This document shows, one piece after another, positions 6,303 through 25,373 of a DNA stretch of 35,336 bases. This stretch comes from a virus: positions 1 through 35,336 of IMG/VR virus record IMGVR_UViG_3300021389_000070. The stretch is one strand, 5' to 3'. Numbering within the stretch: the first letter of the stretch is position 1; the number at the start of each line of letters is the position of its first letter. Under the pieces are notes generated by a model. That model ran no database searches. It had not been told where the DNA came from and saw nothing but the letters and a program-made list of their open reading frames with translations. The translations under genes and the position numbers were made by a program.

Positions 6303-6322
6303 TATTGTTAATAATCATTTAA

Positions 6323-7252: not shown

Positions 7253-7258
7253 CTTTTT

Positions 7259-7723
7259 TTATTTATTAAATAGTTTGTTGTAGATTGAGTCTTTCACAGT
7301 TCTACTTCTGTTTTGTGAATATAAATGTTGTTGTTTTTGCTCTACTTGAGCTTCTGGAGAATGTACTATTTCTTCTGCTTCAGCAGATAATTCAGTAACA
7401 TCTTCTTTAATTTCTACTTCCTCTGATAATTCAGCAGGAACGTCTTTTTCTTCTGAAGGAGAAACGATTTCCATCATTTGACTAACAGAAGCCTTTAATG
7501 AATTTAACTCTTCGTATAAAGAATCGTATTTCTTCTTTAATGATTCAAGGTCTGAATCTTCAGAAATAACTTCTTCTACAGGAGCTTCTTCGATAACTTC
7601 TTCAGCTTGTTCTACTTTTTCCTCAGCTAGTTCAACAACCTCTTCTACAGGTGTTTCAACTACTTCTTCAGAAGAAAGTAAAATACTTTTGAAAGCATCT
7701 ACAATTTCTTTTGGACTTTTCAT
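7259..7723 (-). CDS. Scaffold-like acidic coiled-coil protein
   Basis: The 154-aa protein is extremely Glu/Val-rich (VEEVVELAEEKVEQAEEVIE), with a predicted coiled coil at about residues 60-95 (SLKKKYDSLYEELNSLKASV) and a basic C-terminus (SRTVKDSIYNKLFNK). Phage scaffolds are typically acidic and helical with a short basic capsid-binding C-terminus. The gene lies 6 bp upstream of the capsid gene and downstream of the prohead protease, the usual place for a scaffold. No sequence family can be named. Confidence 0.72.
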   Translation of the reverse strand: MKSPKEIVDAFKSILLSSEEVVETPVEEVVELAEEKVEQAEEVIEEAPVEEVISEDSDLESLKKKYDSLYEELNSLKASVSQMMEIVSPSEEKDVPAELSEEVEIKEDVTELSAEAEEIVHSPEAQVEQKQQHLYSQNRSRTVKDSIYNKLFNK

Positions 7724-7793
7724 AAATTAAAATTTATTATTAATAACTCTATAACACTAATAACTAGGAATATAAATCTTGTTGTATTTTTGA

Positions 7794-7934
7794 TTAAATG
7801 TTTCCTATTCCTTGATTAATCATTTTTCCCTTACAACACTCTCTACTATATCTATTTCCGTCTTTACATAGACATCCTCTTCGCTTATTCTTTGGAGATG
7901 TTCTACTCCATTGCTGTTCTCTTTTTCTATTCAT
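7794..7934 (-). CDS. Small Cys-rich protein (46 aa)
   Basis: ATG 7934 overlaps the end of the protease gene by 8 bp and opens MNRKREQQWSRTSPKNKRRG, followed by GCLCKDGNRYSRECCKGK and an ending in IGNI. The CxC...CC cluster with surrounding basic residues suggests a small metal-binding protein. I recall very similar short RGCLCKDG...ECC proteins in many flavobacterial phages near the capsid or protease gene. Function is unknown; a role in head assembly is possible from position. Confidence 0.7.
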   Translation of the reverse strand: MNRKREQQWSRTSPKNKRRGCLCKDGNRYSRECCKGKMINQGIGNI

Positions 7935-8964
7935 CTTTTAGCTTATTTAGTATTTCATTTAATATTGCTAAAGCCTGTGAGTCTTCTTCAGATAGAGATA
8001 GCTTCTCTAATTTATTTATAGCCCACTCGATACCACTTGTTCCTCCCCAGCAATCCCACATAAGACCACCACATCCTTCTGAATAAGGCACATCTTTATG
8101 TTGTTGATGTCTTTTAAATGATGCCATTCTAGCAATAGTATCTCTAGTTAGTGGCTCTCTGTTAGCTAGTTGGTTTGCTCTTTGTTTTCCAACAGGAGTA
8201 CCACAACTTCCCCATCCATTCTTTTCTACCCAGGCTAAAGCTCTTTTAGCATTGTTAGTTGCAGATTGTGGATAGTCACTATAGGACTTTAATTCTTGTT
8301 CTTTATATCCTTCTGGTTTGCTATGCACCCAACCTTTTGCTGTATACTTGTCGTGTTCCTTTTTATCCATTATCTCTACTTCATCTCCAGTCTTAGGGTT
8401 GTACATAATGTGAGGATATTCTACCAAGTCTTGTTTAGCTAACTCTTGTTCTTTTTGACTAAAGAAACCTTCTATACTAAAACCAAGATATTTACCTTGT
8501 TTTACATCTTCCCATATCTCATCATTATCAATCTTCATAACTACAGCCCAAGCACCTTCTGGAGCATCTAACTTGTATAGGTTAGTTTTATCCATATTAG
8601 GGTCTTCTACTATCCAAGACTCTATAAGGGACACTCCCTTTACTGTTAGTTCGTGTTCTATAGTAGCATTATTGTTCTTTAGTCTTTTAAGGTAAAGTTC
8701 AGACGCCTTCTTAACAGTCTCTTTAGAAAACATTATCTTATAAGCATAGTCTCCACTTTTTCTAAATATTTCCTTGTCTGGAACTAAAGCTAGTCCTACT
8801 ACAATTCTTTTCTCGTCATCTACAGATTTGAATTCTACTTTATGTCTACTTAAAGCTACAAAATTTTCTTCTATTGCAGGACTTTCTACTAGGGAGATAG
8901 CTTCTATTCCATCCTCTAAATTGTTTTCGTCTATTATTAATTCTATAATGTCTAAATCTTCCAT
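7927..8964 (-). CDS. Prohead protease (XkdF/S78_2-like) with fused C-terminal domain
   Basis: The 345-aa protein has a protease-like domain at about residues 1-170: VGLALVPDKEIFRKSGDYAY, His104 in TIEHEL, SLIESWIVEDPNMDK, and KYLGFSIEGFF with Ser163. This is the pattern of the XkdF-type phage serine protease family (Peptidase S78_2), which cuts scaffold and capsid during maturation. After a linker, residues 227-323 form a second domain (SYSDYPQSATNNAKRALAW, SCGTPVGKQRANQLA, ARMASFKRHQQHKDVPYSEG, CGGLMWDCWGGTSGIEWA). I recall this module as widespread in phage head proteins with no known function. The gene is next to scaffold and capsid genes. Confidence 0.82.
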   Translation of the reverse strand: MEDLDIIELIIDENNLEDGIEAISLVESPAIEENFVALSRHKVEFKSVDDEKRIVVGLALVPDKEIFRKSGDYAYKIMFSKETVKKASELYLKRLKNNNATIEHELTVKGVSLIESWIVEDPNMDKTNLYKLDAPEGAWAVVMKIDNDEIWEDVKQGKYLGFSIEGFFSQKEQELAKQDLVEYPHIMYNPKTGDEVEIMDKKEHDKYTAKGWVHSKPEGYKEQELKSYSDYPQSATNNAKRALAWVEKNGWGSCGTPVGKQRANQLANREPLTRDTIARMASFKRHQQHKDVPYSEGCGGLMWDCWGGTSGIEWAINKLEKLSLSEEDSQALAILNEILNKLKDE

Positions 8965-8974
8965 AATTATTATT

Positions 8975-11185
8975 TTAACCTATTGTTGCTGTGTTGGATA
9001 TACTTAAATCTAATTGTTGTTGACTTGTTATTTCTGATGAAACTACATACGCTTGTATTGGTTGGCTTAATTGACCAGCTATTGATTGTGTTAATTGATT
9101 TGATTGTGTGCTACCTGCTAGGTTAAAATTAAACTCTCTACCTTCTCCTTCTCCACCACTTCGACCTGCTGCTGCCCCTATTGAACCTCCACTACCTGCT
9201 GATGACTGAAACTTCTGTCTAGCAATAGCTGCTACATTTAATAAACCAGATGATATTGTTGCTGCCATAGCGACAAATCTAGCTATAGTTCCTCCTTTAG
9301 TTTCAGCAAGAACCCTGTTGGCTGCTAGGTATGTACTTATAGTTGCATTAGCTATATTTGCTGCCTTATTTAACTTAAATCTTTTTTTCTCTATTTTCTC
9401 TTGCTTCTTTCTTAACTTCTCATCATTTCTAGCTATCTGTAACTGTATTCTTTCTCTTTCGTCTTTAGATAAGTTTTCATTTAAAAGCCTTTGATTCAGC
9501 TCATTGTTTAAAGCATTTGTTTTATTTTGCTCTATAGTTAGTTGTCTGTCAAACTCTCCACTCATAAAGCTAGTCATAGCAGATTGAACTTTCATATACT
9601 GCTGAAGACCCTCTTCTAAAGTGAATTCATCCTTAATTTCATCCTTCAATGGCTTGGCTATTCCTATTTGAGAAATCTTAGCAGCTTCTGCTTTTTTAGT
9701 GTAGTAATTTTGCCATCTTATTAATAATGTTGGAAAATTCTCATCCATAATTTTCAACTGATTCTTAATATCAATATCAAAATCATCTAATTCTTGACTA
9801 GCTTGAGCCTTAGTCATTTTGCCAATTTTAACTTGGTAATCTAAGAATAATTTAAGTTTAGATTTATAACTTTCGGCTTCTTTGACAAACTCTTCCCTGT
9901 CTTCTTTATTCTTTCTTTGTAAATTTTCGATATGATACTTTCTCTCTATCTCTATCTTCTCTACTTGAGTTTTAGCATCTAGTAACTCTCTTTTCTTAGA
10001 TAATTTAGCTATTTGGTCTAAATAATCTTCAGCTTCTTTATTAAATTCTTTAGGGTCTCTTATAGGAGGTAATTTGTCTTTATCACCATCTTTGTTGAAT
10101 ATAGAAAACATCTCTTCTCCAACTATCATTTTAGTTAAACTATCCACATATTCGTTAGCATCCTTTAGGTCTTTTTTTCTAAAATCCCTTAAAGCATCAA
10201 ACCTTTGCATAGTAGAACTTTTCATATATTTATCTAGATGTGCTTTTTTTTGAGTCTCTGTCAAATTACTCTTATCTATTTGATTTTTTGTTCTATCAAT
10301 GTACTTCTGTCTTTGTTTTTCTAGGTCTTCAAGCGTGCCTTCAAATGCTCCAACACCACCTTCAGCTATTCGCTTACCTCTTTCTATTTCTATTTCTACT
10401 ACTTTAGATTGAGCTTCTGTTATTTTTTCTAAAACAGCTTGAGCTTTAGCATTTTTAACTAAAGACTCAGTTAATTTGTCTATATTCTCTTGAGATGTTT
10501 TTGTTAATTTACCTTGCTCATCTATTGTTAAATTCAAGTCCTTAAACTCATTGTTAACATTTGATACTATTTTCTTTTTATCTTCAAGAGAAACGTTTGT
10601 ACTTCCTAATACATTTTTAAGAATCATTAATTTAGCAGCTTGACTGTCTACTAGTTTAGAAAAATCTGCTGTAGAGTCTGATGCTTTCTTAGACTTCTGA
10701 CTATAAAAGTCTAAAAGAGCTGTTAACCCTTGAAAAGCAACCAATATACCAGCTGGACCAAGAAGTGATTTTCCGAACCTAATCAAAGCACCTCCAAAAC
10801 CAATAGTTTTACCTGTAGCTGCATCAACACCCTTAGACATAAAAAATAAGTTTGAAGCTAATTGTTGCACGTTGTTCGCAACACCTCTAATTCCGTAAGG
10901 AGCATCAGATAAAACTCTACCAAATTCTAATGTAGCTGAAGTAGCTGCTCCTGTTTGACTAGTAAATCCTCCTACAGACTTTCCTAGTGTATTAAACTGC
11001 TTCCTGTTTATATTTACTGTACTCTCTACTTTTTTAGAAGTTACAACAAAATTACCTAATTCCTTTCTTAGTTCCTTTATAGGTACTTTGGAAGATATAA
11101 TTTGATTATTTATATTCTTTAATGTAGCACTAGTTCCTCCGTCATTGAGAATTATCTTTATTTTAATATCTTTCTCTTTAGCCAT
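8975..11185 (-). CDS. Tail tape measure protein
   Basis: The 736-aa protein has a hydrophobic, Gly/Ala-rich segment at about residues 85-165 (FGRVLSDAPYGIRGVANNVQ, LLGPAGILVAFQGLTALLDF), then long Lys/Glu-rich coiled coils, and a second hydrophobic part near 610-660 (ANIANATISTYLAANRVLAE, FVAMAATISSGLLNVAAIAR). This is the usual tape-measure layout. At about 1.5 angstrom per residue it would set a tail of about 110 nm, which fits a siphovirus. It lies between the tail-tip genes and the protease. Confidence 0.85.
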   Translation of the reverse strand: MAKEKDIKIKIILNDGGTSATLKNINNQIISSKVPIKELRKELGNFVVTSKKVESTVNINRKQFNTLGKSVGGFTSQTGAATSATLEFGRVLSDAPYGIRGVANNVQQLASNLFFMSKGVDAATGKTIGFGGALIRFGKSLLGPAGILVAFQGLTALLDFYSQKSKKASDSTADFSKLVDSQAAKLMILKNVLGSTNVSLEDKKKIVSNVNNEFKDLNLTIDEQGKLTKTSQENIDKLTESLVKNAKAQAVLEKITEAQSKVVEIEIERGKRIAEGGVGAFEGTLEDLEKQRQKYIDRTKNQIDKSNLTETQKKAHLDKYMKSSTMQRFDALRDFRKKDLKDANEYVDSLTKMIVGEEMFSIFNKDGDKDKLPPIRDPKEFNKEAEDYLDQIAKLSKKRELLDAKTQVEKIEIERKYHIENLQRKNKEDREEFVKEAESYKSKLKLFLDYQVKIGKMTKAQASQELDDFDIDIKNQLKIMDENFPTLLIRWQNYYTKKAEAAKISQIGIAKPLKDEIKDEFTLEEGLQQYMKVQSAMTSFMSGEFDRQLTIEQNKTNALNNELNQRLLNENLSKDERERIQLQIARNDEKLRKKQEKIEKKRFKLNKAANIANATISTYLAANRVLAETKGGTIARFVAMAATISSGLLNVAAIARQKFQSSAGSGGSIGAAAGRSGGEGEGREFNFNLAGSTQSNQLTQSIAGQLSQPIQAYVVSSEITSQQQLDLSISNTATIG

Positions 11186-14382: not shown

Positions 14383-15789
14383 TTATCTAACGTTGTTTGT
14401 TGTGTTAAAGGAAAATTCTACGTCTATTGTGTAATTTATTAGCTTATTATTTAAACTAGTCTTATAATCTATGTTTTGATTTGATATGTTAATTGGTAAT
14501 ATTTGTTGATTGTAATCCATCCAAACCTGTTCACTTAGCATAAGTTGCTTAAATATCTCGTTAAATGACTCTGGAACAAAACCACTATTTATTGTTAATG
14601 TTTGCTTAGACATAGTGTCAAAATCAACACCTCTATGAGACGAAATAATATTGTTTCTATAGTCTTTTATTGTGTTACCTTCAAATTTCTCTCTCTCTAT
14701 TTGCATAGATAACCTAGAAGATTTAAAAAACCAAAGTTCTTGTTTAGCTCCTAACTTATTTCTAAATATTATCTTATAAGGAGTGTATTTACATTCCTCT
14801 ATGTCTTCAACTTTTATTATCCTATCAGCAACAGACTCCGTCACAGAAACATCATCTATGGAAAGTGATAAGCTATCCTGCTCGTTGGTAGTTTGTGCTT
14901 GAAACTGTATTCTATCAAATTCTCCTACACCACTTGCTTGGTATGTTCCGTTTCCTGTTATGTTTACAGAAAATGGATACCTCATACTCACATTTCCTGT
15001 ACCTCCGTATCCAGTAACACTAAAAGATACATCTAAACTTTTTCCAACCAATCTTTCTGAATCTTGATAAAGTCGTTGTACATTTAAGTCTGAGGAATCT
15101 AAAAAAGCTTCGTTATTGCTAATACTCCAATCATCTCCTTTTACCCAATCTGTATCTGTGGCGAAATCCCCATTCACAGTAATCTCTGGACCGTTATGAG
15201 ACTCCACTCTTACCTCTGTAACATCATCTAATCCTGCCCCTAAAGAAGCAACTATGCTAGAGCTTTGAACATTGGCTGATGGAGTTGTGTTTGTTTGATT
15301 AAGAAGTATTGTTGAGCCACTAAAAAACGTAACTTCGCTAAAACGTCTATAATCTAAAGGTATAAGAACATCATTGCCATCAAGATTGTATATTAAATCG
15401 CTGTCTATAAGGCATCCTGCTAACGAAGTATTATTGTATCCTTGTTCGTAGTAAGAATATCCGTAAACAGCATAGTCTCCAGTCTGCATACTACCTTGAG
15501 AAACAGCTGATGTAGTGGTTGTAGTTATTCTATAATCAACCCATACCACACCATTATCCGAAGAAGTGCCTGTATACCTTGTATCAATAAAATCCTTAAC
15601 TAAGTCAGATATATCCCAATATACAGTATTAGGTATGTCTGTTACTGTAGAATTTATTGTATAACTTACTTCAGTAGGTCTGCTTGTTACTGCTGTACCC
15701 TCATACACCCATAATTCTATAGATGCAGATACTAGGTCTGTAGCTGTTGCTTTTATCCAATAAGGACTTCTAGCTAATATCTTACTCAT
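14383..15789 (-). CDS. Distal tail / tail-tip protein with inserted fibre-type module
   Basis: The 468-aa protein opens MSKILARSPYWIKATATDLV. The outer parts (1-200 and 320-468, e.g. VEDIEECKYTPYKIIFRNKL and REKFEGNTIKDYRNNIISSH) look like a tail-tip protein common in flavobacterial siphoviruses. Residues 202-319 form a separate module opening with NGDFATDTDW and closing with SIDDVSVTES, the same type as the tandem modules of the fibre gene. The start overlaps the upstream gene by 8 bp, and its stop abuts the 1017-aa gene. The role is probably linking tail tube to fibres. Confidence 0.75.
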   Translation of the reverse strand: MSKILARSPYWIKATATDLVSASIELWVYEGTAVTSRPTEVSYTINSTVTDIPNTVYWDISDLVKDFIDTRYTGTSSDNGVVWVDYRITTTTTSAVSQGSMQTGDYAVYGYSYYEQGYNNTSLAGCLIDSDLIYNLDGNDVLIPLDYRRFSEVTFFSGSTILLNQTNTTPSANVQSSSIVASLGAGLDDVTEVRVESHNGPEITVNGDFATDTDWVKGDDWSISNNEAFLDSSDLNVQRLYQDSERLVGKSLDVSFSVTGYGGTGNVSMRYPFSVNITGNGTYQASGVGEFDRIQFQAQTTNEQDSLSLSIDDVSVTESVADRIIKVEDIEECKYTPYKIIFRNKLGAKQELWFFKSSRLSMQIEREKFEGNTIKDYRNNIISSHRGVDFDTMSKQTLTINSGFVPESFNEIFKQLMLSEQVWMDYNQQILPINISNQNIDYKTSLNNKLINYTIDVEFSFNTTNNVR

Positions 15790-16315
15790 TGCTTATATTT
15801 ATTATTTTTCTTAACTCAGTTCTTAAATCTTCAGCGTAGGCTTCTGTTATCTCAACACCTATTTTATCTTCAATCTCCTTATACACCCTTTCAAATAGGT
15901 TACTACCTTTGTAACCAAACCTTTTTATTGTACCTCTCTCAGAAGTACTTCTCATTATAGCAAAAACAGCACTTTTGTAAGCACTATCCTTTAGTGTTGA
16001 TGTTTTAGCAAACTTATAACCACTTTTTAGCTTCCTATAAGGTCTAATACCTTTGGCTTTTATCCAAGACTCTATACTTTTCTTCTTTTTCTCCCAACCT
16101 ACATTACTATTGGATGGTAGAGTACCATCAACAACGTATTTAGCATATCCTACATTAGATGTTATTTCTATAGAGTTATCTTTTACCTTAGCATTAAATG
16201 AATTAGCAAACTTACCTGTAGCAACAGTCTTATCTAGTCTAGCTCCTCTCTGAAGCCTAACTTTAAACTCTTCAGCTATCTTATTTAACTCTGCTACAAG
16301 ATTCTTCTTATCCAT
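15782..16315 (-). CDS. HK97 gp10-like tail completion protein
   Basis: In the 177-aa basic helical protein, residues 5-65 (AELNKIAEEFKVRLQRGARL, ITSNVGYAKYVVDGTLPSNS) match the HK97-gp10-like pattern, with an N-terminal helix followed by the Y-A-x-Y-V-x-x-G strand. The C-terminus ends in a helix (YAEDLRTELRKIINISNE). Such proteins complete the tail end that binds the head. It overlaps the next gene by 8 bp and shares one base with the gene before. Confidence 0.72.
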   Translation of the reverse strand: MDKKNLVAELNKIAEEFKVRLQRGARLDKTVATGKFANSFNAKVKDNSIEITSNVGYAKYVVDGTLPSNSNVGWEKKKKSIESWIKAKGIRPYRKLKSGYKFAKTSTLKDSAYKSAVFAIMRSTSERGTIKRFGYKGSNLFERVYKEIEDKIGVEITEAYAEDLRTELRKIINISNE

Positions 16316-16776
16316 TAGCAGATGTTTATCTCGTTAGGCATCTGTATTTGTATAGAACCTTCCCATCCTGCTAACATATTCTCATATTTCTCCATAAAAG
16401 GAGTTGCATTTAAGTCATCATCCGTAATTAGCCTAACATCCCATAAATCTCCTCTTTTTAACTGCATAAATAGGTAGTTTAAGACGTTTAACTGCGTATT
16501 TAAGACATCTTGAGAGTTATCGTTACCATAGAAGTTATCTGTAGCCTTATCTTTACTTATATCAACTATATCCATACAAATAACGTTTAGTGTTACTGTA
16601 ATTGTCCTAGAACTTAGAGTTGTTGTGTCAACAATTAAGTGTGTTAAGGGAAATATAGTTGTTTTTGCTAGGTCAACATCAGATAAGTTACCTGTAGTAA
16701 CAGTATTACATTGTGGATGCTGTAGTAATTGAGCTTTTAAGCTGTCTAGTACGTTGTAAACTTGGTTTTGTGCCAT
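16315..16776 (-). CDS. Tail terminator-like protein
   Basis: The 153-aa protein opens MAQNQVYNVLDSLKAQLLQH and has a mixed alpha/beta pattern (TLNVICMDIVDISKDKATDN, LNVLNYLFMQLKRGDLWDVR, GWEGSIQIQMPN). Size, fold pattern and place next to a gp10-like gene fit tail-terminator proteins, which cap the tail and join it to the head. The start ATG overlaps the stop of the -1 frame extension upstream (TAATG), so it is translationally coupled to the frameshift product. Family assignment is inferred from position and pattern. Confidence 0.62.
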   Translation of the reverse strand: MAQNQVYNVLDSLKAQLLQHPQCNTVTTGNLSDVDLAKTTIFPLTHLIVDTTTLSSRTITVTLNVICMDIVDISKDKATDNFYGNDNSQDVLNTQLNVLNYLFMQLKRGDLWDVRLITDDDLNATPFMEKYENMLAGWEGSIQIQMPNEINIC

Positions 16777-17045
16777 TATCTATTCTTATTTTGTATATCT
16801 TTTACTAATCTAGCCTCTAATTTGGCTCTGTCTTGTACATATTCTAAGTACATCATACATTGGTGTAATGGAAGCTTTGAAACTTCGTCAAGTCTTCGTA
16901 CATCGTCTTGTGCGAGGCATAAAAACGATTGATAATCTCCCCATTTTCTTCCAAAAGCTGCTTTCCTTCCTTGTTGGTCGTTAATTTCGCCTGTTCCATT
17001 AAAGAGTCCATTGTATATTTCGACAATTTTGTCCCTAAACGATAA
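16776..17045 (-). CDS. -1 frame C-terminal extension of the tail chaperone (GT-like; full fusion 17572-16776, about 265 aa)
   Basis: After the T9 slip the -1 frame encodes 89 residues: LSFRDKIVEIYNGLFNGTGE, then AAFGRKWGDYQSFLCLAQDD, VRRLDEVSKLPLHQCMMYLE and YVQDRAKLEARLVKDIQNKN. It is helical and protein-like, and its W-G-x-Y plus L-P-x-x-x-x-x-x-L pattern is like C-termini of related phage proteins. The stop overlaps the next ATG (TAATG). About 190 bp are thus coded in two frames. The last 26 codons could also be read from ATG 16856, which overlaps the zero-frame stop. The fusion product would be 176 + 89 residues. Confidence 0.78.
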   Translation of the reverse strand, partial: LSFRDKIVEIYNGLFNGTGEINDQQGRKAAFGRKWGDYQSFLCLAQDDVRRLDEVSKLPLHQCMMYLEYVQDRAKLEARLVKDIQNKNR

Positions 17046-17572
17046 AAAAAAACCTGCATTCCTAACGCTACATTAACTGGTGCATCTTTCATCACTTCTG
17101 AGAACTTATCACTACCCTCATAGTCAGCTATTCTGTAGTGATACTTGTTGCTTATGTCTTTTATTACAGGTCTGTAAAGAACTGCCATTAATTTATGCAA
17201 GTCTTTTACGTCTTTCATATAATTTTCAGCATCTTTAAATGCTCCGTATGATATTTTATCTAGAGATGGTTCAAAACCAAACTCCACAGTAACACCTTTT
17301 GCGTCAGTCATCTTAAATCTGTTTATAAATGGCTTATCTTCCTTGAAACAGTCATTTATGTGACTCAATATGTTGTCAAAAGTGTTAATTGGTATCTTAA
17401 AAGACTCCTTTAAGTCCAATCCACAGAATATTTCTAAAGTTTTCTTGTTGATAAACTCATAATCTTCTGCCTCCTTGTTATCTTCCCATAATTTAGCGTA
17501 TTCTTGGTACTGCTGTACAGTTATGCCACTTAAATCGTTGGGAATACTAATATCAAGTTCTATTTTACTCAT
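16853..17572 (-). CDS. Tail assembly chaperone, zero-frame product (239 aa)
   Basis: This helical 239-aa protein opens MSKIELDISIPNDLSGITVQ. It has QYQEYAKLWEDNKEAEDYEF, INKKTLEIFCGLDLKESFKI and DLHKLMAVLYRPVIKDISNK, then VNVALGMQVFFYRLGTKLSK. This is a recurring protein of Bacteroidota siphoviruses placed at the head of the tail genes. It is the first gene of the leftward virion operon and stops with TGA inside ATGATG. In many long-tailed phages the gene at this place is made in two lengths by frameshifting (G and GT of lambda). The run of nine T at 17044-17052 inside this gene, with an open -1 frame after it, indicates the same here. The role is to hold the tape measure during tail assembly. 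Confidence 0.78.
   Translation of the reverse strand: MSKIELDISIPNDLSGITVQQYQEYAKLWEDNKEAEDYEFINKKTLEIFCGLDLKESFKIPINTFDNILSHINDCFKEDKPFINRFKMTDAKGVTVEFGFEPSLDKISYGAFKDAENYMKDVKDLHKLMAVLYRPVIKDISNKYHYRIADYEGSDKFSEVMKDAPVNVALGMQVFFYRLGTKLSKYTMDSLMEQAKLTTNKEGKQLLEENGEIINRFYASHKTMYEDLTKFQSFHYTNV
17044..17052 (-). promoter_or_regulatory. Slippery run T9 for a -1 ribosomal frameshift
   Basis: On the minus strand the zero frame reads CAG GTT TTT TTT TAT CGT, which contains the ideal X XXY YYZ heptamer (T TTT TTT). Slipping back one base leads to TTT TTT TTA TCG, a frame open for 89 codons to TAA at 16776. This is the only clear slippery site in the gene at a place where both frames stay open. Confidence 0.8.
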
Positions 17573-17848: not shown

Positions 17849-18208
17849 ATGAATACAAGAGAAAAATGGGCAGAAATGCAAGAAGATGGGCAATACAAGT
17901 ATGTAGAGGAGGTTTTTAGCAATGCTGAAGCTAGAAAAAACATACCTGTGTTTAGTGGAGTACTAAAGTACTTCCCAAATGCTTTAAAAGAAGTAGCTAA
18001 GTGTAGTAAAGCTGGTAATGACCAACATCACCCAGATAAACCATTACATTGGGATATGGATAAGTCTAAAGATGAGTATGATGCTTTAACAAGACACCTT
18101 ATAGACCATACTATAAATCCTATAGATGACGATGGTGTATTACACTTAACTAAAGTAGCTTGGAGAGCTTTAGCTGGATTAGAAAGATATTTAACTAACA
18201 AACATTAA
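17849..18208 (+). CDS. DUF5664-like putative dATP/dGTP diphosphohydrolase
   Basis: In the 119-aa protein, residues 40-115 follow the DUF5664 pattern: YFPNALKEVAKCSKAGNDQH, LTRHLIDHTINPIDDDGVLH and LTKVAWRALAGLERYL. This phage family is annotated as dATP/dGTP diphosphohydrolase-like (all-alpha, MazG-like), with the R-H-L, D-D and H-L-x-x-x-A-W-x-A-L core. A role in trimming host nucleotide pools or excluding a base from phage DNA is possible. No DNA-modification synthesis gene is seen nearby, so the substrate is open. It lies in the first part of the accessory operon, 1 bp after its neighbour. Confidence 0.7.
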   Translation: MNTREKWAEMQEDGQYKYVEEVFSNAEARKNIPVFSGVLKYFPNALKEVAKCSKAGNDQHHPDKPLHWDMDKSKDEYDALTRHLIDHTINPIDDDGVLHLTKVAWRALAGLERYLTNKH

Positions 18209-18219
18209 AACAAATAGAT

Positions 18220-18381
18220 ATGCACAGAAAGAAACTAATACAGAAGTTGCAACAACTGACTGATAAACTACCAGTATCAGATAAAAGAAAAGAAGTGAAG
18301 CAAGACTTACTTGATTTAAAACTAAGTAAAACAGATTATCACTTTATAACACTAAAAGATAAATATAAAAATGAAGAATAA
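18220..18381 (+). CDS. Small Lys-rich protein (53 aa)
   Basis: The 53-aa frame opens MHRKKLIQKLQQLTDKLPVS and ends LKDKYKNEE. It is highly charged and helical, probably a short coiled coil. It lies 11 bp after the DUF5664 gene and overlaps the start of the following membrane peptide by 11 bp. Its function is unknown. Confidence 0.6.
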   Translation: MHRKKLIQKLQQLTDKLPVSDKRKEVKQDLLDLKLSKTDYHFITLKDKYKNEE

Positions 18382-18475
18382 ATCTACAACATTGCAAGGA
18401 GTAATAACATTCTTCTTAGTATCTTCTGTATTAGCATTAGTAATAATATTAACAGTAATAGCAGTAAATAAATAA
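18371..18475 (+). CDS. Single-pass membrane peptide (34 aa)
   Basis: The 34-aa frame MKNKSTTLQGVITFFLVSSV...VNK has one strongly hydrophobic segment from about residue 10 to 31, with Lys at the N-terminus and at the C-terminal end. It overlaps the gene before by 11 bp and is followed 3 bp later by the next gene. Its place far from the lysis genes makes a holin unlikely. An accessory membrane protein is possible. Confidence 0.55.
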   Translation: MKNKSTTLQGVITFFLVSSVLALVIILTVIAVNK

Positions 18476-18478
18476 ATT

Positions 18479-18733
18479 ATGAAAATAGAATACTGCTCTA
18501 GTGATTACTCCTATAATGAATGGGGTAATCTAGGACTTGATTGGAGTAATAGATACAAAGTTAAGTATTGTGTAGAGGCTTACTTATTTAGACAAAGTAA
18601 CTACCTAAAAGGACTCAATAACAAGCACATAATGAAAAGCACTTTTGGATTAATGAGTTATAAATCGATAAAGGAAGATATTGAATTATGGTATAACAAA
18701 TGTATTGGAGCATATAATCAAATCAAATATTAA
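18479..18733 (+). CDS. Hypothetical protein (84 aa), Tyr/Asn/Cys-rich
   Basis: The 84-aa protein opens MKIEYCSSDYSYNEWGNLGL and is rich in Tyr, Trp and Asn, with Cys at 6, 31 and 75. I recognise no family. It is tightly placed in the accessory operon (3 bp after the membrane peptide, 13 bp before the next gene), which supports expression. Confidence 0.6.
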   Translation: MKIEYCSSDYSYNEWGNLGLDWSNRYKVKYCVEAYLFRQSNYLKGLNNKHIMKSTFGLMSYKSIKEDIELWYNKCIGAYNQIKY

Positions 18734-18746
18734 TTATAAATAAATT

Positions 18747-18899
18747 ATGAGTACAAAAAAGAAACATACAACCAAAGAGAGGTTTAAGATTATAGAAAGT
18801 GCTATAACGTCAATATACGTTGCCACTAATAAACTTAACCGAAAAGTAGAAGAACTAGAAAAACAATTAGAAACCTTAATACCAAAAGAAAATGAATAA
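18747..18899 (+). CDS. Small coiled-coil protein (50 aa)
   Basis: The 50-aa frame opens MSTKKKHTTKERFKIIESAI and ends with the heptad-like VEELEKQLETLIPKENE. A basic N-terminus and coiled-coil C-terminus suggest oligomerisation and perhaps nucleic-acid contact. It overlaps the next gene by 8 bp. Function is unknown. Confidence 0.6.
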   Translation: MSTKKKHTTKERFKIIESAITSIYVATNKLNRKVEELEKQLETLIPKENE

Positions 18900-19038
18900 C
18901 TTTGAATTAAAACCAACAGACAAAAAAGACCACTACAGATTCTTCATCAATGGAGTAGATGTAACAGGAGAACAAGAAAGAAGTACCTTTAGACATATCA
19001 TACAAGTTCTAGATAATGGTATAACTACAGGATTATAA
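18892..19038 (+). CDS. Hypothetical protein (48 aa)
   Basis: The frame MNNFELKPTDKKDHYRFFIN...NGITTGL gives 48 residues with a beta-hairpin-like centre (HYRFFINGVDVTG). It overlaps the gene before by 8 bp and the gene after by one base (TAATG), which supports coupled translation. No family is recognised. Confidence 0.6.
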   Translation: MNNFELKPTDKKDHYRFFINGVDVTGEQERSTFRHIIQVLDNGITTGL

Positions 19039-19184
19039 TGACAGATAAGTATAAACTTAGATTAATGCACATCATAGGGTGCATAAAGAACAACTACATC
19101 TCCGAGATAGAAGGATACAATTCCATTCTTAAACTCATAAGAGACTCGGAGAATGATACAGAAACAATAACTATAGATGTATAA
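19038..19184 (+). CDS. Hypothetical protein (48 aa), 3' end duplicated downstream
   Basis: The frame MTDKYKLRLMHIIGCIKNNY...TETITIDV gives 48 residues and is helical. Its last 22 bases (19163-19184) recur exactly at 19652-19673 after the GIY-YIG gene. The gene therefore lies at the left edge of an inserted segment, and its original downstream neighbour was probably the gene now at 19666. No family is recognised. Confidence 0.6.
   Translation: MTDKYKLRLMHIIGCIKNNYISEIEGYNSILKLIRDSENDTETITIDV
19163..19184 (+). repeat. 22-bp direct repeat, left copy, flanking the GIY-YIG gene
   Basis: A 22-bp stretch (starts aacaataactat, ends gatgtataa) is identical to 19652-19673, 489 bp to the right. In both copies it encodes TITIDV-stop and, in another frame, the ATGTATAA start of a downstream gene. 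This is the expected footprint of a homing-endonuclease gene that moved with a piece of target sequence. Confidence 0.85.
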
Positions 19185-19195
19185 ACAAAGTAATT

Positions 19196-19648
19196 ATGGA
19201 AGACAAAAGAAAATATAACAAAGGAACAAAAGGAAACAAAGGAGGTAGACCAAAAGGAAGTCCATTAATGAAGGCTATCGATTTAAGTTGTGAGAAGTTT
19301 ATTAAAGAACTATTAAGTAATGAAATGATTAAAAATAAAGCCATTAAAGAGCATATTAAAAAAGAAAACATAAAAGACTTTCTTTATTTAATAAAAGTTG
19401 GTAAAGATTATAAAATAGGTATTACGTCAAATATATCAAACAGATTTAAACAATATAGAAGTCATAGTGGTTATAATGCAGAGATTATTTACTTGACAAA
19501 AATAAGCAACCCTAATGAGTTGGAAAAACTATTAGTAAATAGATATAGTCACTTATGTACAAGAGGAGATTGGTTTACTTTTAAACAAGAAGATGTACTT
19601 GATTTAATAACATACTCATCAAATTTTATATACAATGAAAGAAGATGA
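19196..19648 (+). CDS. GIY-YIG / T5orf172-type endonuclease with GGRPKG hook
   Basis: In the 150-aa protein, residues 1-25 are basic, with two KG repeats and GGRPKGSPL (AT-hook-like DNA binding). Residues 61-140 match the T5orf172/MUG113 branch of GIY-YIG nucleases: FLYLIKVGKDYKIGITSNIS, NRFKQYRSHSGYNAEIIYL, a Glu in NELEKLLVNRYS and RGDWFTF near the end. The first half of the GIY-YIG motif is replaced by YLI...YKIGIT, as usual in this branch. It is a free-standing mobile endonuclease bracketed by the 22-bp duplication. It lies 11 bp after the upstream stop. Confidence 0.75.
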   Translation: MEDKRKYNKGTKGNKGGRPKGSPLMKAIDLSCEKFIKELLSNEMIKNKAIKEHIKKENIKDFLYLIKVGKDYKIGITSNISNRFKQYRSHSGYNAEIIYLTKISNPNELEKLLVNRYSHLCTRGDWFTFKQEDVLDLITYSSNFIYNERR

Positions 19649-19651
19649 AAT

Positions 19652-19673
19652 AACAATAACTATAGATGTATAA
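19652..19673 (+). repeat. 22-bp direct repeat, right copy
   Basis: This copy is exactly the same as 19163-19184. Here it ends a short in-frame remnant MKEDEITITIDV (ATG at 19635) that overlaps the end of the endonuclease gene. The start codon of the 135-aa gene (ATG 19666) lies inside the repeat. Confidence 0.85.
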
Positions 19674-20073
19674 GACAAGTTGGAGTACAGAACACCTTAA
19701 ACAACTAAAAGACATAACTAACCATAAAGTAATATACGATGGCTATGAGTTTGTATGGATGTCTAAGTTAGATGATGAATGGAATAGACACTATGTAGCT
19801 AACTTTACTAACTATAACAAACCTATGTCTTGGATACACGTAAACGTCTATAAGTGGAATAAAGAATATAAGAATAGACATTCTAAGTATCTAGAAGATA
19901 TGCGTAAAAGTCTGGAGGTAGATATTCGTATAAAGGAGATAAGTAGAATAGCTAATATAAAGACTAAACAAAAGATAAAAGAAATACTAAACCTAAAGCC
20001 AGATATAACCAATAAAGATATATCTGATATATTAGGAGTAACAATAAGAACAATAGAAAGACATAGAAAATGA
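19666..20073 (+). CDS. Hypothetical protein with C-terminal HTH (135 aa)
   Basis: The 135-aa protein has an aromatic N-terminal half (MYKTSWSTEHLKQLKDITNH, YEFVWMSKLDDEWNRHYVAN) of unknown fold. The C-terminal part (EILNLKPDITNKDISDILGV, TIRTIERHRK) reads as a homeodomain/MerR-like helix-turn-helix. The N-terminal half probably belongs to the phage gene present before the insertion. The HTH is like that of the next gene and could come from a mobile module. Its stop overlaps the next ATG (ATGA). Confidence 0.6.
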   Translation: MYKTSWSTEHLKQLKDITNHKVIYDGYEFVWMSKLDDEWNRHYVANFTNYNKPMSWIHVNVYKWNKEYKNRHSKYLEDMRKSLEVDIRIKEISRIANIKTKQKIKEILNLKPDITNKDISDILGVTIRTIERHRK

Positions 20074-20624
20074 AAGAATTTGAAGTAGTGCTTAATAAAT
20101 TAATTAAGGCTGAATCAGAAATAGTTAGGTTAAAAAAAATAATAGAAAAAATAAACCCTAATCCAAAATTAAAAGAACAATACAACAATATTGAAGACAT
20201 CGCAAGAAACAATAATTATTCTAATAAAGATAAGGTTATTATGATTCTCGATATTAACGAAAATATGTCAACCTCAAAAATATCTAAGATAACAAATATA
20301 TCAAAAAGAAGCATACAAAGATACAGGAAATCAATAGGTAAAGTCTATAAGCACCCTTTAAAACCTAATGAATCTAAAATATTAGAATCCAAGACTTATT
20401 TAATGAAGAACAGCAGGAATGGTATGTATAAAATTGGTAAAAGCATTAATCCATCTCGCAGAGAAAAAACATTACAGAGTGAAGAGCCTATGATAAAAAT
20501 AGTAAAAACTTGGAACTACGATATAGAAAAAACACTTCATAAAAAATACTCAAAACAAAGAGTTAGAGGAGAGTGGTTTAAGCTAAGCTATATACAGGTT
20601 AAATATATTTGTACTAATTATTAA
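20070..20624 (+). CDS. HTH + T5orf172/GIY-YIG protein (184 aa)
   Basis: The N-terminal 35 residues are helical (EVVLNKLIKAESEIVRLKKI). Residues 55-95 form an HTH (NENMSTSKISKITNISKRSI, QRYRKSIGKVY). From about 108 to 184 the T5orf172 pattern follows: TYLMKNSRNGMYKIGKSINP, SRREKTLQSEEP, IEKTLHKKYSKQRVRGEWFK. HTH plus nuclease is typical of phage mobile endonucleases. It is the last gene of the plus operon, followed directly by a terminator. Its nuclease domain is clearly distinct in sequence from the one at 19196. Confidence 0.72.
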   Translation: MKEFEVVLNKLIKAESEIVRLKKIIEKINPNPKLKEQYNNIEDIARNNNYSNKDKVIMILDINENMSTSKISKITNISKRSIQRYRKSIGKVYKHPLKPNESKILESKTYLMKNSRNGMYKIGKSINPSRREKTLQSEEPMIKIVKTWNYDIEKTLHKKYSKQRVRGEWFKLSYIQVKYICTNY

Positions 20625-20667
20625 AAAGTGTCGGTACTACCAAGCTTAGTAGCGACAACTTTTTTTT
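20623..20667 (+). terminator. Intrinsic terminator at the end of the plus operon
   Basis: AAAAAGTGTCG pairs with CGACAACTTTTTTTT around an inner CTAC...GTAG stem, with one small bulge, and ends in eight T on the plus strand. The stem begins right at the stop of the 184-aa gene. Because A-runs and T-runs flank both sides, it may also work on the other strand. Confidence 0.8.
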
Positions 20668-20969
20668 GACAAGTGTTGTAAACCAGTACTTTACAAAATA
20701 CAAAATCAGCCCTATAGTAAACTACTTTTTTCTATTTTTTCAGATTTGAATATCCAGTTTTTATTGAAAAGATATTTGGTTGAAATCTAAACATTGGGCA
20801 TCTTACTTCCACCATAACGCATTTTACGTCTATTTTAAGCTATCCTAATAAATTACTAGTATATTGGTATTATTTTAGTGTAAAAGTGTCTTAAATCGCT
20901 TAATTTGGCTTGTTTACCATACATTACCCTACTATATTTAATCCTCAATAACTTACAAAATTATTGCAT
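20668..20969. other. Non-coding gap between two converging operons
   Basis: About 300 bp between facing terminators. I see no open frame of note, no tRNA and no clear repeat. It may be a relic of the insertion that brought in the neighbouring minus-strand island. Confidence 0.5.
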
Positions 20970-20996
20970 AAAAAAAAGCTACTAAAAAAGTAGCTT
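20970..20996 (-). terminator. Intrinsic terminator for the minus-strand island
   Basis: On the minus strand AAGCTAC / GTAGCTT form a perfect 7-bp stem around TTTTTTA, followed directly by TTTTTT. It lies about 30 bp after the last gene of the 22.9-21.0 kb cluster. Confidence 0.85.
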
Positions 20997-21026
20997 AATT
21001 TATATCAATATGTTAGTGTTTTTATA

Positions 21027-21233
21027 TCAAATTTCTATAGTTAATTTATTTATTTGAGGTTTAATAATTTCTACTAATTTAAACGTTTGATACTTTAAAC
21101 GATAACGTGTTAAATCATTAGTTAAAATATATTCTTTAATTGTATTATTTTCTACATTAAATAGAATAAAAGCTTTTTTTGTATTGCTTAATTTTAGTAA
21201 TAAGCTCAGGCTAATTTTATAGGTATTAATCAT
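21027..21233 (-). CDS. Hypothetical protein (68 aa)
   Basis: The 68-aa protein opens MINTYKISLSLLLKLSNTKK and ends QINKLTIEI. It is rich in Ile, Leu, Asn and Lys, mostly beta-strand, with no membrane helix. It is the last gene of the leftward island. Composition is even more AT-rich than the virion genes. Its function is unknown. Confidence 0.5.
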   Translation of the reverse strand: MINTYKISLSLLLKLSNTKKAFILFNVENNTIKEYILTNDLTRYRLKYQTFKLVEIIKPQINKLTIEI

Positions 21234-21245
21234 TTTTATTTATTT

Positions 21246-21842
21246 TTAATTATTAAAATATTTTTGTGTAGTTATCCAAATTATTGCTTGTAGTTCAAAA
21301 CCATTTAAATTTAATTTACTGGCTTTTTTAATTGTAAGGCTTTTAATTTGCTGGTAAGCTGTTTTGCCTATTGAAGAGCTATTAATGCTTATATTGTCTT
21401 TAAAACAAGCTCTTAAATGCCAAATATCAATAGTTAAAAAATCATTGTTTAAATATGCTATATTATTGACAAAATTAAACGTCTTTAAGCTATTGTTTGT
21501 TATGTTAACGTTATTAGCTAAAATATTAAATGCTTTAAATTTGTTTGTATGGAATGTACAAACCTTAATATCTACAGGATGTAAAGCCAGTACAAACGCT
21601 TCGCAAACTTTGTCAGCATCTTTGAGGTTTTGTTTCCATTTGTTACGAGGTGATAAAGCACTAATTACTTGAGAAACCTTGTAAACATCTAAATTGTATT
21701 TTTTAGCTATGTTAGCAGCTTGTTTATTGGCGTTTTTATACCAGTTTAAACCAGCTTTAATATCTTGTTTTGTTGCTATATTAAAAAAAAAGTCTAAATT
21801 TTTACTAATTTTTTGTAGCTTATAATTACTTATTTTCTTCAT
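21246..21842 (-). CDS. HhH-glycosylase-like phage protein (DUF7178-like), 198 aa
   Basis: In the 198-aa basic helical protein, residues 25-75 (GLNWYKNANKQAANIAKKYN, then VSQVISALSPRNKWKQNLKD, ADKVCEAF) resemble a phage family I recall as DUF7178. That family carries the same A-A-L-S-P-x-x-x-W-x-x-N core and a later T-I-D-x-x-x-x-R. Here the latter is FLTIDIWHLRACF, followed by LNGFELQAIIWITTQ. The layout is like endonuclease III/HhH DNA glycosylases, but I see no Fe-S cluster Cys set. A role in DNA repair or base excision is a guess. It abuts the 169-aa gene (stop/start 1 bp apart). Confidence 0.55.
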   Translation of the reverse strand: MKKISNYKLQKISKNLDFFFNIATKQDIKAGLNWYKNANKQAANIAKKYNLDVYKVSQVISALSPRNKWKQNLKDADKVCEAFVLALHPVDIKVCTFHTNKFKAFNILANNVNITNNSLKTFNFVNNIAYLNNDFLTIDIWHLRACFKDNISINSSSIGKTAYQQIKSLTIKKASKLNLNGFELQAIIWITTQKYFNN

Positions 21843-21843
21843 T

Positions 21844-22353
21844 CTATTGCTTTTTTAATGCGTCTATACTATTGTGTAAATAATTAGCTGTAAATAATCT
21901 TTGATTTTTAACAAAATCGTTATTCATATAAAAATAATGCGATTGTCCTATTATTTCAGCGTTAATTAGCTCTTTTTCAAAATACCAATTTTGTGGCAAT
22001 TGGTCCTTTTGTATATTACAAACTATTGACTCTTCAGTAATGGAATAGCCTAAGTTATAATTTAGATGTATATAATCGTGCCAAGCTCGAAAATAATGGT
22101 TTATTTTTTCATTCCCAAAAATAGTATTTTCACTTGCTCCAGTCCAAATGTGTATCTTACCCGTTTTTCTATATATTTTTTTGTGATTTTCAAAAGTAGA
22201 TTGAATGTCTTTTTCGTCAAAATTATCAACCTCAGTAAATACAAATATATGTTTGTGATTTTCAAACCAAGTTTTTATAAAGTCATTTAATTGTCTGGAG
22301 AATGGGGTATTTTTACCTTCTTTTGATGCTAAAAATAAATATTTGCTTTTCAT
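21844..22353 (-). CDS. Hypothetical protein with HDxxH and ExxGQ motifs (169 aa)
   Basis: In the 169-aa protein, after an N-terminal half with KTWFENHKHIFVFTEVDNFD and KTGKIHIWTGASENTIFGNE, there is FRAWHDYIHLNYNLGY and later WYFEKELINAEIIGQSHYFY. The pairing of R-A-x-H-D-x-x-H with a distant E-x-x-G-Q resembles a motif pair seen in other phage-encoded proteins of unknown function and suggests a metal or nucleotide site. It is coupled to the 198-aa gene and may act with it. No function can be named. Confidence 0.5.
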   Translation of the reverse strand: MKSKYLFLASKEGKNTPFSRQLNDFIKTWFENHKHIFVFTEVDNFDEKDIQSTFENHKKIYRKTGKIHIWTGASENTIFGNEKINHYFRAWHDYIHLNYNLGYSITEESIVCNIQKDQLPQNWYFEKELINAEIIGQSHYFYMNNDFVKNQRLFTANYLHNSIDALKKQ

Positions 22354-22357
22354 GGTT

Positions 22358-22564
22358 TTATTGTATTTTAAATGTTACTAATTTGTTTAGGTTACTATTA
22401 TAATACTTTTTTAATCGTATTATAATTAATTTATTTAATTCTATTCTGTTTTTGTGCCACTCGTTTTGCTTTAAACTTTGTCTTAAATTATAGTTTTGCA
22501 GCTCGTTTATTAGCTCTAAAATTCTGGTTAACTTTTCAAATATTTTTATTTTGTCTTTATACAT
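22358..22564 (-). CDS. Hypothetical helical protein (68 aa)
   Basis: The 68-aa protein opens MYKDKIKIFEKLTRILELIN. It is strongly helical and basic with amphipathic repeats (ELNKLIIIRLKKYYNSNLNK). It stops 4 bp before the 169-aa gene. Function is unknown. Confidence 0.5.
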   Translation of the reverse strand: MYKDKIKIFEKLTRILELINELQNYNLRQSLKQNEWHKNRIELNKLIIIRLKKYYNSNLNKLVTFKIQ

Positions 22565-22575
22565 TGTTTAAAGTT

Positions 22576-22662
22576 TTAATTGTTAATAGCGTAAGCTGCA
22601 CCGCTTGCAAGCTCTTTTAAGATTTGATTTGCTTTTTTTAATACTTGTTTAATTGTTTGCAT
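22576..22662 (-). CDS. Possible 28-aa peptide
   Basis: ATG 22662 opens a 28-aa frame MQTIKQVLKKANQILKELAS...AYAINN that fills the gap between two larger genes. It is amphipathic and helical with an Ala-rich end. It is a weak call because of length; spacing and orientation fit. Confidence 0.35.
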   Translation of the reverse strand: MQTIKQVLKKANQILKELASGAAYAINN

Positions 22663-22681
22663 TTTATTTGGTTTTTAGTTA

Positions 22682-22915
22682 TTACTTGTTTAAAATATAG
22701 TTAATTAATGTTTCTTTATTGTCACTACTTAAAGACGTGTACAAATACATAAAAGCTGTTTGACTGTTGCCAAATCTATTACAGTAGTTAGAAAATTTAT
22801 TTCTAAGATGCTGAGCGAGATATTCATCAAAAATATTTTCAATAAATTTATGCTCGTAATTAAACGAATACATTATTACTTTGTCTACAGCGTTAAAATT
22901 TGTTTTGTTTTGCAT
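22682..22915 (-). CDS. Hypothetical protein (77 aa), first gene of the minus island
   Basis: The 77-aa protein opens MQNKTNFNAVDKVIMYSFNY and has YLAQHLRNKFSNYCNRFGNS and TLINYILNK near the end. It is helical, with no known family. It is the promoter-proximal gene of the leftward island, next to the 560-bp AT-rich non-coding region. Upstream, TATTTTTG on the minus strand (22992-22985) could be its -7 element, but no -33 element is seen. Confidence 0.5.
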   Translation of the reverse strand: MQNKTNFNAVDKVIMYSFNYEHKFIENIFDEYLAQHLRNKFSNYCNRFGNSQTAFMYLYTSLSSDNKETLINYILNK

Positions 22916-23119
22916 TTTATAAGATTTTTAATAATTAATAATACTTAAACCTACAAAAAAACATTGGTTTTTGTACTTTTTTGGCAAAAATAAAGTGTTA
23001 AAGTTTGAATTTTTATCATATTACTAAAAAACAAGAAATTTTATTAATTATAATATAATGAAAAGCACCAAAAACTAAGAATAATTCATTGCGAATACTT
23101 CAAAAAACCTGTTAAAATG

Positions 23120-23145
23120 TGTTAACGTTTTGCGAATAATGTAAT
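23120..23145. repeat. 26-bp direct repeat, copy 1
   Basis: This copy starts tgttaacgttttgcg and ends aataatgtaat, identical to 23263-23288. The GTTAAC core is palindromic. Exact identity over 26 bp in non-coding DNA points to a protein-binding site. Confidence 0.85.
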
Positions 23146-23262
23146 TTAGCTGTTTTTAAGTCAATTTTATAGCTAAAAAAACCCACTTTTTTACAAAAAT
23201 CAATCAAAAACAAGCGTAATTTTGTCACTTTTTTATGACTTTGTGTCACTTTTGCTTAAAAA

Positions 23263-23288
23263 TGTTAACGTTTTGCGAATAATGTAAT
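23263..23288. repeat. 26-bp direct repeat, copy 2
   Basis: This copy is exact and lies 143 bp to the right of copy 1. A shorter related tgcgaata occurs at about 23091. Confidence 0.85.
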
Positions 23289-23479
23289 AAAACAAAAAAA
23301 GTACAAAACACAACAAAACCAGCTTTTAAAATGTAATAAAGGTATTTTCTAAAATATAGCTTTGTAATATAAAAGTTAAACAAATGTACAGGCACGCAAC
23401 TACAAAAAATATTTCAATTAACCAAACAAAAAAAGTTAAATTATTTTTTAGCCAAAAGACAAGAAATTTACAGCCCCAC

Positions 23480-23540
23480 CCCCATTATATTAAACATAGT
23501 ACCCCCATCATATTAAACATACCCCATCATATTAAACATA
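23480..23540 (+). repeat. Three 19-bp tandem repeats (iteron-like)
   Basis: The unit CCCCATCATATTAAACATA occurs at 23503-23521 and 23522-23540 (head to tail, no gap), and with one change (ATTATA for ATCATA) at 23480-23498. The block ends 20 bp before the 53-aa gene at 23560. Further exact copies lie before and after the next gene. Confidence 0.92.
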
Positions 23541-23559
23541 AACTTAAATAATTATAACA

Positions 23560-23721
23560 ATGGTAACAGAAATTTTATTAAAAGAATACAACAATTTGGA
23601 ATTTGTTTTTGGTAAAGAATATATCTCTATGATGTTTAGAGATTTCAATTCTTACTGTGAAGTTAGAGAGGATAGTACATTTCACGAGATTAGAGAAGAA
23701 CTAATCAATTTAGAATATTAA
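23560..23721 (+). CDS. Small acidic protein (53 aa) between repeat blocks
   Basis: The frame MVTEILLKEYNNLEFVFGKE...EELINLEY gives 53 residues, acidic and mixed alpha/beta. It starts 20 bp after three 19-bp repeats, and its stop is followed 8 bp later by another copy. No family is recognised. Its place between the repeats suggests shared regulation with the 86-aa gene downstream. Confidence 0.6.
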   Translation: MVTEILLKEYNNLEFVFGKEYISMMFRDFNSYCEVREDSTFHEIREELINLEY

Positions 23722-23729
23722 TTTAATTA

Positions 23730-23747
23730 CCCATCATATTAAACATA
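23730..23747 (+). repeat. 19-bp repeat, single copy before the 86-aa gene
   Basis: CCCATCATATTAAACATA (18 of the 19 bases; the first C is replaced by A) lies 6 bp before ATG 23754. The short gap puts the repeat where a ribosome or a leader-binding regulator would act. Confidence 0.9.
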
Positions 23748-23753
23748 AACAAA

Positions 23754-24014
23754 ATGAAACAAACTATTTACTACAAAGCATCTGGTTACGACAGAACTAT
23801 TTATAATTTTTTTATAATAGATAGGGAAACAAAAGCATTTGTATTTTTAAAAAGGCTAACTAAGATAGATAAAGACCCTGGTGTTGTTCCTGGAGAACTT
23901 GAAAATAACTCTGATACAATTAGGTTAAGTAAGAAGAAGTTTAATGTGTACTTCAGCGAATGGAACAACCAACCATTAGTTGAAAATCATAACTACACAT
24001 ACACAGGACCTTAG
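23754..24014 (+). CDS. Hypothetical protein (86 aa) between repeat blocks
   Basis: The 86-aa protein opens MKQTIYYKASGYDRTIYNFF and is beta-rich, with FIIDRETKAFVFLKRLTKID and an ending HNYTYTGP. No family is recognised. It is preceded by one 19-bp repeat and followed by two, so each gene here sits in a repeat-gene-repeat unit. Confidence 0.6.
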   Translation: MKQTIYYKASGYDRTIYNFFIIDRETKAFVFLKRLTKIDKDPGVVPGELENNSDTIRLSKKKFNVYFSEWNNQPLVENHNYTYTGP

Positions 24015-24158: not shown

Positions 24159-25373
24159 CTATCTTATTGTGTAAATTCCTTTGTTCTTACTTGTAGCTAA
24201 TCTCATCAAAGCATATCTTATAGCATCACAGAAGTGATTAAACTTATCGATTGGTCTTACACCTTTCTCGTGCCATACATAGTTGTTAAACTCCTTTATA
24301 ACACCTTTACTTCTTGGGTCTACTATTATCTCATAGTCCTGCATAAGTGCTATACCAGATAATATACTACCACTTTTCTTTACAGCAGGTTGTATGTTCA
24401 ATCCTTTCTTCTTTAGCTCCTTTATAAGTCTAGGTTCAGAAGAATCACAAACTATCAAATCTAAGCCACATTCAGCTCTATTCATATTTGCTATATCTGA
24501 CGTAGAAAGCCCTGTTTTACCATAAATCTCCTTTACATAGACTCTATTGTTAAAATCATCTACAGATATCTTTACAAGCGTTGTGGGGTCTTCAGAGAAC
24601 CCAAAATCCTGCCCATAAATGGTCTTTTCCGTCTGTATGTAGTCTCCAACTTTCCAATTTCTTATAATTGTTCCTTCTGCTTTTGCTAACCATCCTCCTA
24701 ATATCTGATGCTGGTATTTATCTGGTCTTCTAGCCTTCATATCTAGTATTCTAGCCATAAAGGAATCCGATAGGTTATCTTTATTATCTTTATAGGTTGT
24801 ATGGATGTAAGTTGTGTCTCCTTTAGTTCCATTGTAACCATCATCAACAATATTACCTAAAAAGAACCTTTGGTATATCCAATGCTCTTTTGTAGTTGGG
24901 TTTAGTATTAAAATAACCCTGTTTTGCTTGTTTAGAGACCTTATAGAGAAGTCTATCTTGTCAAATGTACCTTCATCATCAAGTTCCTCTGCTTCATCCA
25001 CTACAAACGTTGTAATTCCGTTTAAAGACTTAAGTGCTGCTGTCTGGTTACCACTAGATGTCCTTATACCCTTAAATATAATGGAAGAACCTGTTTGCAA
25101 GTTGGTTATCTCATCCTTAGTTATCCTAAAGTGAGAATTTACTCCCATCATATCAATTTTTTCTACAAATTCTGGTATAATAGACGTATGTGCAGATGAC
25201 ATTGTATAACGAGTAAACAGTATCTTGTGTCCACTTTCGTATGTAAGGTTTAGTAGGAATACGTTTATACCAAAAGACTTACCACTACCCCTACCTCCAG
25301 TAATAACATTGTATCTTGTCTTACTTTGGAATAAAGGTATGTACTTGTCGTGTAAATTTATGCTATTCTTCAT
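24159..25373 (-). CDS. terL: Terminase large subunit
   Basis: The 404-aa protein has an N-terminal packaging ATPase with Walker A GGRGSGKS (residues 26-33), Walker B TTFVVDEAEEL (Asp126, Glu127) and coupling motif VILILNPT. The C-terminal RNase-H-like nuclease has Asp256 (YGQDFGFSED), Asp310 (LIVCDSSEPR) and Asp383 (FCDAIRYA). This is the Terminase_3/PBSX-like family. It translocates DNA into the prohead and cuts it. It overlaps the small subunit by 11 bp. Unlike in most phages, the next gene is not the portal: the accessory region starts just behind it. Confidence 0.95.
   Translation of the reverse strand: MKNSINLHDKYIPLFQSKTRYNVITGGRGSGKSFGINVFLLNLTYESGHKILFTRYTMSSAHTSIIPEFVEKIDMMGVNSHFRITKDEITNLQTGSSIIFKGIRTSSGNQTAALKSLNGITTFVVDEAEELDDEGTFDKIDFSIRSLNKQNRVILILNPTTKEHWIYQRFFLGNIVDDGYNGTKGDTTYIHTTYKDNKDNLSDSFMARILDMKARRPDKYQHQILGGWLAKAEGTIIRNWKVGDYIQTEKTIYGQDFGFSEDPTTLVKISVDDFNNRVYVKEIYGKTGLSTSDIANMNRAECGLDLIVCDSSEPRLIKELKKKGLNIQPAVKKSGSILSGIALMQDYEIIVDPRSKGVIKEFNNYVWHEKGVRPIDKFNHFCDAIRYALMRLATSKNKGIYTIR

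Follow-up and report, generated by a model that had tools for sequence, protein, structure and literature searches.

Does a run of nine T within a short phage gene cause that gene to be decoded into two products and, if so, which machine slips and what would the products do? We addressed this question in a window of 35,336 nt, comprising positions 1 to 35,336 of the IMG/VR virus record IMGVR_UViG_3300021389_000070. The zero-frame gene is an ORF at 16853..17572 (−; 239 aa, coordinates including the stop) that would encode a short, G-like product. The nine T of the putative slip site lie at 17044..17052 (−) and are read GTT TTT TTT TAT, with the heptamer T TTT TTT in phase. The −1 frame extension, which would provide a T-like helical domain for a long product, occupies 16776..17045 (−) and consists of 89 codons followed by a TAA (16778..16776, −) that overlaps the ATG of the next gene (16776) as TAATG. 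A preliminary description had reported a nine-T run in the right −1 phase inside a 239-aa gene and an 89-codon −1 frame ending on the next gene; all coordinates hold in the window sequence. It had further proposed that about 190 bp are coded in two frames. The overlap measures 190 nt (16856..17045, −), and its dual coding is supported by a depletion of zero-frame stops and by residue conservation beyond what the −1 protein demands. The genome is AT-rich, and the window contains two T9 runs compared to 6.6 expected from dinucleotide shuffles. Since T9 is not rare in such a genome, the evidence for a programmed event lies in conservation and dual coding, not in the run as such.

Relatives were sought in IMG/VR with the −1 domain and, independently, with the zero frame, yielding at least 579 and at least 570 confirmed relatives, respectively. 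For the comparison of loci, we kept the best 80 of each scan and two Bacteroidetes MAG contigs; the alignment of the −1 domain comprises 40 sequences. All 354 loci with both coding segments show the −1 relation and none an in-frame fusion. Some of these loci are the same contig counted twice, and the slip site and its surroundings are represented by 271 distinct sequences; another four loci stop short of a readable −1 domain and are not part of the 354. The run consists of 9 T in 312 loci, 10 T in 41, and 12 T in one, and is never shorter than 9 T. Close relatives (86–97% identity) retain T9 and both frames. The cultured Nonlabens phages P12024L/S carry a homologue (31% identity) with the sequence CTT TTT TTT TAT CAT TTA GGG and a recognizable −1 domain; in P12024L, gp40 and gp41 (JQ823123.1, L001:9001-9695) are the halves of one frameshifted gene that have been annotated as separate hypothetical proteins. 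Comparison of related phages had been put forward as a test of the frameshift, and both the T-run and the two frames are kept.

Dual coding was assessed statistically in 84 clusters at 80% identity. For the window, the probability that the zero frame stays open as long as observed, conditional on the −1 protein and on the codon usage of the family, is P = 0.003. The same test across the 84 clusters, randomizing synonymous codons of the −1 protein, gave a median P of 0.006, and the reverse test (zero-frame protein kept, openness of the −1 frame scored) a median P of 0.002. The openness of both frames, which had been noted as protein-like from the translations, thus exceeds chance. In the first 57 columns of the −1 frame, 6 zero-frame stops were seen, whereas 213 would be expected from the −1 proteins alone; past column 57, stop counts return to near expectation. 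Several zero-frame residues are conserved far beyond what the −1 protein demands, leucine occurring in 84/84 and 82/84 clusters at positions where that protein alone does not call for it, and third positions of −1 codons vary less freely inside the overlap than beyond it. Stop depletion, residue conservation, and codon-position entropies together indicate purifying selection on both frames of the overlap and hence on both products.

Conservation in relatives and the dual-coded overlap point to a programmed frame transition with a short and a long product. Judged from the sequences of these loci, we regard a widely conserved −1 frame transition in marine flavobacterial phages as real. A programmed −1 frameshift that gives two products with a tail-chaperone-like role, whichever machine slips, is in our assessment the likely explanation. 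Decoding would in the majority of cases keep the frame and yield the 239-aa product. In a minority of events, a slip back by one on the nine T would lead into V-F-F-L-S-F-R... and yield a product of ~267 aa, whose last 89 residues would form the conserved helical domain. By analogy with lambda gpG, the short form may be an abundant tail-assembly chaperone coating the tape-measure protein; by analogy with gpGT, the long form may be a minor chaperone that brings in the tail tube protein through its extra domain. The ratio of short to long form would then be set by the slip.

The best-surviving alternative concerns the level at which this occurs. In transcriptional slippage, a run of at least 9 T would lead RNA polymerase to insert an extra U or to omit two, and ordinary translation of the share of mRNA with 10 U would give the long product; the proteins would be the same as with ribosomal slippage. 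We assign this reading a chance just short of even. T runs of n > 8 have been reported for transcriptional slippage (PMC3711429), and slippage of bacterial polymerase has been reported on 9 A or T (PMC5009743). The run in the present family is an uninterrupted, length-conserved homopolymer of 9–12 T that occurs in several codon phases: (ATG/TTA) TTT TTT TTT CTG, ATA TTT TTT TTT TAC, and CTT TTT TTT TTG. Across the 271 distinct sequences it is never shorter than 9 T, although 7–8 would serve the ribosome. A T follows the slip codons in all but two sequences, and both of these contain an extra upstream TTT and so still have 9 T; assuming independence of the sequences, which holds only in part, this coincidence has P ~0.0008. 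TTC never breaks the homopolymer, although it makes up 28% of upstream Phe codons and most sequences could exchange TTT for TTC at the second slip codon without altering the protein of either frame. This argument rests on the absence of 7- or 8-T runs; the third-base count of the second TTT was left out, as it is conditional on run detection.

Stimulatory signals were likewise considered, as an RNA structure or a Shine-Dalgarno (SD)-like stimulator is usual, albeit not obligatory, at ribosomal −1 sites. A search for a stem-loop or pseudoknot behind the run had been suggested, and no such stem-loop was found: the mean folding z-score 3′ of the run in 148 relatives equals that of controls in windows of 40, 70, and 100 nt, and is −0.12 for the window itself. 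SD-like sequences upstream of the run show only a small enrichment of 3–4-nt matches. In the host bacteria, ribosomes largely ignore SD sequences (PMC8710568).

Several points argue for the ribosome instead. The T TTT TTT heptamer is in phase in every sequence, and the two T beyond it may be explained by hydrophobic flanks (V/L/I before the heptamer, L/F after it in the −1 frame). Lambda-type tail chaperones provide a precedent for ribosomal slippage and, to our knowledge, all experimentally studied tail chaperones use the ribosome. The originally proposed slip on T TTT TTT agrees with the presence of the heptamer in every sequence, while polymerase slippage becomes a serious alternative because 7 T suffice for the heptamer and yet the run never falls below nine. 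Weighing a run that never drops below 9 T and occurs in several phases, together with the lack of a detectable stimulator, against ribosomal precedent and hydrophobic flanks leaves the level nearly even: if forced to choose on the sequences, we would give the ribosome an even chance, RNA polymerase almost the same, and any other mechanism very little. The broader proposal, that RNA-polymerase slippage on an obligatory 9–10 T, not ribosomal frameshifting, sets the ratio of two tail-chaperone forms across marine flavobacterial siphophages that make up a very large family so far without annotation, is one we put forward tentatively, as somewhat less probable than its negation.

We next consider the identity of the products. 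In our analysis, they are very probably a tail-assembly chaperone in a short and a long form, and the lambda G/GT reading appears to be the best available. On coding potential and gene order, the locus shows a two-length product with a −1 long form within a tail module. The next gene (16315..16776, −; 153 aa, phrog_30964), with its ATG overlapping the TAA of the −1 frame, is the same in 82 of 84 representative relatives. The conserved order comprises TerL (in many), the frameshift gene, the phrog_30964 gene, an HK97-gp10-like gene where recognized, a gene like that at 15789..14383, and an fn3 protein. In the window, a probable tape-measure protein (8975..11185, −; 736 aa) follows after the fn3 gene, downstream and in the same direction. 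Its role is suggested by its sequence character; it matches the C-terminus of P12024L gp50 (1e-8) and MAG contig L121, as well as, weakly, the tail family phrog_226 (0.015).

An unlikely alternative is that the frameshift is real but that the gene encodes, in two lengths, some other factor of head or tail assembly. This reading draws on the lack of detectable kinship to known chaperones. The zero-frame protein matches phrog_32199 (5e-17), a family of unknown function, and searches against Pfam and NCBIfam gave no convincing family match and against annotated PHROGs none, only PHROGs of unknown function being hit. No sequence similarity to lambda G/T was found. The model of the zero-frame protein (pLDDT 80) combines an alpha/beta core with a long helical hairpin at the C-terminus, whose second helix is modelled with low confidence, and the AlphaFold model of the −1 domain (pLDDT 77) is all helical; neither a PDB fold search with both models (no significant match) nor a PDB sequence search with both profiles (no match) identified a counterpart. 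Matches in BFVD are uncharacterized phage proteins, among them a weak 'tail assembly chaperone' at E 0.9. Five family members match phrog_166 ('tail protein') with E from 0.002 upward, the window itself being without a match. Chaperone families of the gpG/gpGT kind diverge past sequence recognition.

The position of the gene can also be read in favor of another assembly factor, as it lies near TerL in many relatives and does not adjoin the tape-measure gene. Of 84 representatives, 37 have TerL upstream, with many contigs not extending far enough to include it. Chaperone genes usually, though not strictly, lie directly upstream of the tape measure, whereas four genes lie in between in the window, with a similar gene order in relatives. 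Against this reading stand the size of the protein, its two-length design, and its place where a module containing HK97-gp10-like and tail genes begins, as well as the absence of a second G/GT candidate around the tail genes of the window. The size and architecture of the gene and its position heading the tail module fit the earlier assignment as a tail chaperone gene, but neither sequence nor fold searches showed similarity to chaperones.

The weakest alternative, a sequencing or assembly error in the length of an error-prone homopolymer with one frame used in reality, has a negligible probability and was rejected on conservation, given that the same layout recurs in 354/354 loci from many samples, including cultured P12024L and two MAG contigs, and that the frame relation is identical in loci with 9 and with 10 T and is accompanied by a dual-coding signature. 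The preliminary description had named this error as the main alternative, adding that one of the two good frames would then have to be chance. Separate initiation of the −1 frame was rejected as a general mechanism and is unlikely because an in-frame ATG near its start is present in just 5 of 148 relatives.

How does this family compare with known systems? As in lambda gpG/gpGT, one tail-region gene has a −1 slip towards its 3′ end, a short and a long product, and a −1 frame that runs into the next gene. In contrast, the slippery sequence of lambda is not a homopolymer of 9–12 T, the present family has a long dual-coded overlap (190 nt in the window) and no sequence similarity to the lambda proteins, and the lambda gene adjoins the tape-measure gene while the present gene does not. 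P2-type tail chaperones E/E′, which slip on T TTT TTG, share a T-rich slip in a tail chaperone gene but differ from the present run, which always has at least 9 T. With Thermus dnaX and Shigella mxiE/spa13 (transcriptional slippage on A/T runs), the family shares a homopolymer of about nine or more and the lack of a detected RNA stimulator; polymerase slippage has been experimentally shown there, while here it is suggested by sequence. The closest named counterpart is P12024L gp40/gp41 (PHROG 32199, with a −1 domain like PHROG 38404), a homologue that likewise has T9 and the −1 domain but differs in a shorter zero-frame tail (25 codons after the slip) and in its annotation as two proteins.

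The kind of event is therefore known, while the gene family is a new, unannotated one of marine flavobacterial phages; literature searches found no description of this frameshift. PHROG 32199 and PHROG 38404, both of 'unknown function', can be joined as the two parts of a single frameshifted gene whose proposed role in tail assembly is testable, which also corrects entries like the P12024L gp40/gp41 annotation. The slip signal is unusual enough to make the level of slippage worth testing: with a run that invariably has 9 T or more and no RNA stimulator detected, the family is a clean natural system in which to ask if a phage can use polymerase slippage, and not the ribosome, to fix a structural ratio.

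Some further observations concern genome organization. TerL (25373..24159) and the tail module of the window are set apart by a block of other genes (17849-24014), many of which are plus-strand; in contrast, the frameshift gene of many relatives has TerL 0.5–2.5 kb upstream. The region 3521-11185 has an unusual order, with the probable tape measure followed by genes for protease-like, capsid-like, probable tail tube, and portal-like proteins (roles suggested by sequence character), downstream of tail-tip genes. The only other T9 of the window (21783-21791, −) lies near the start of an ORF (21842..21246) and is read as codons FFF. Other T9 runs in the loci of relatives are mostly intergenic and often terminator-like, and in many relatives (e.g., L064, L089, and L304) terminator-like sites consisting of a stem-loop and T9 lie directly upstream of the frameshift gene, ~500–600 nt upstream of the slip site.
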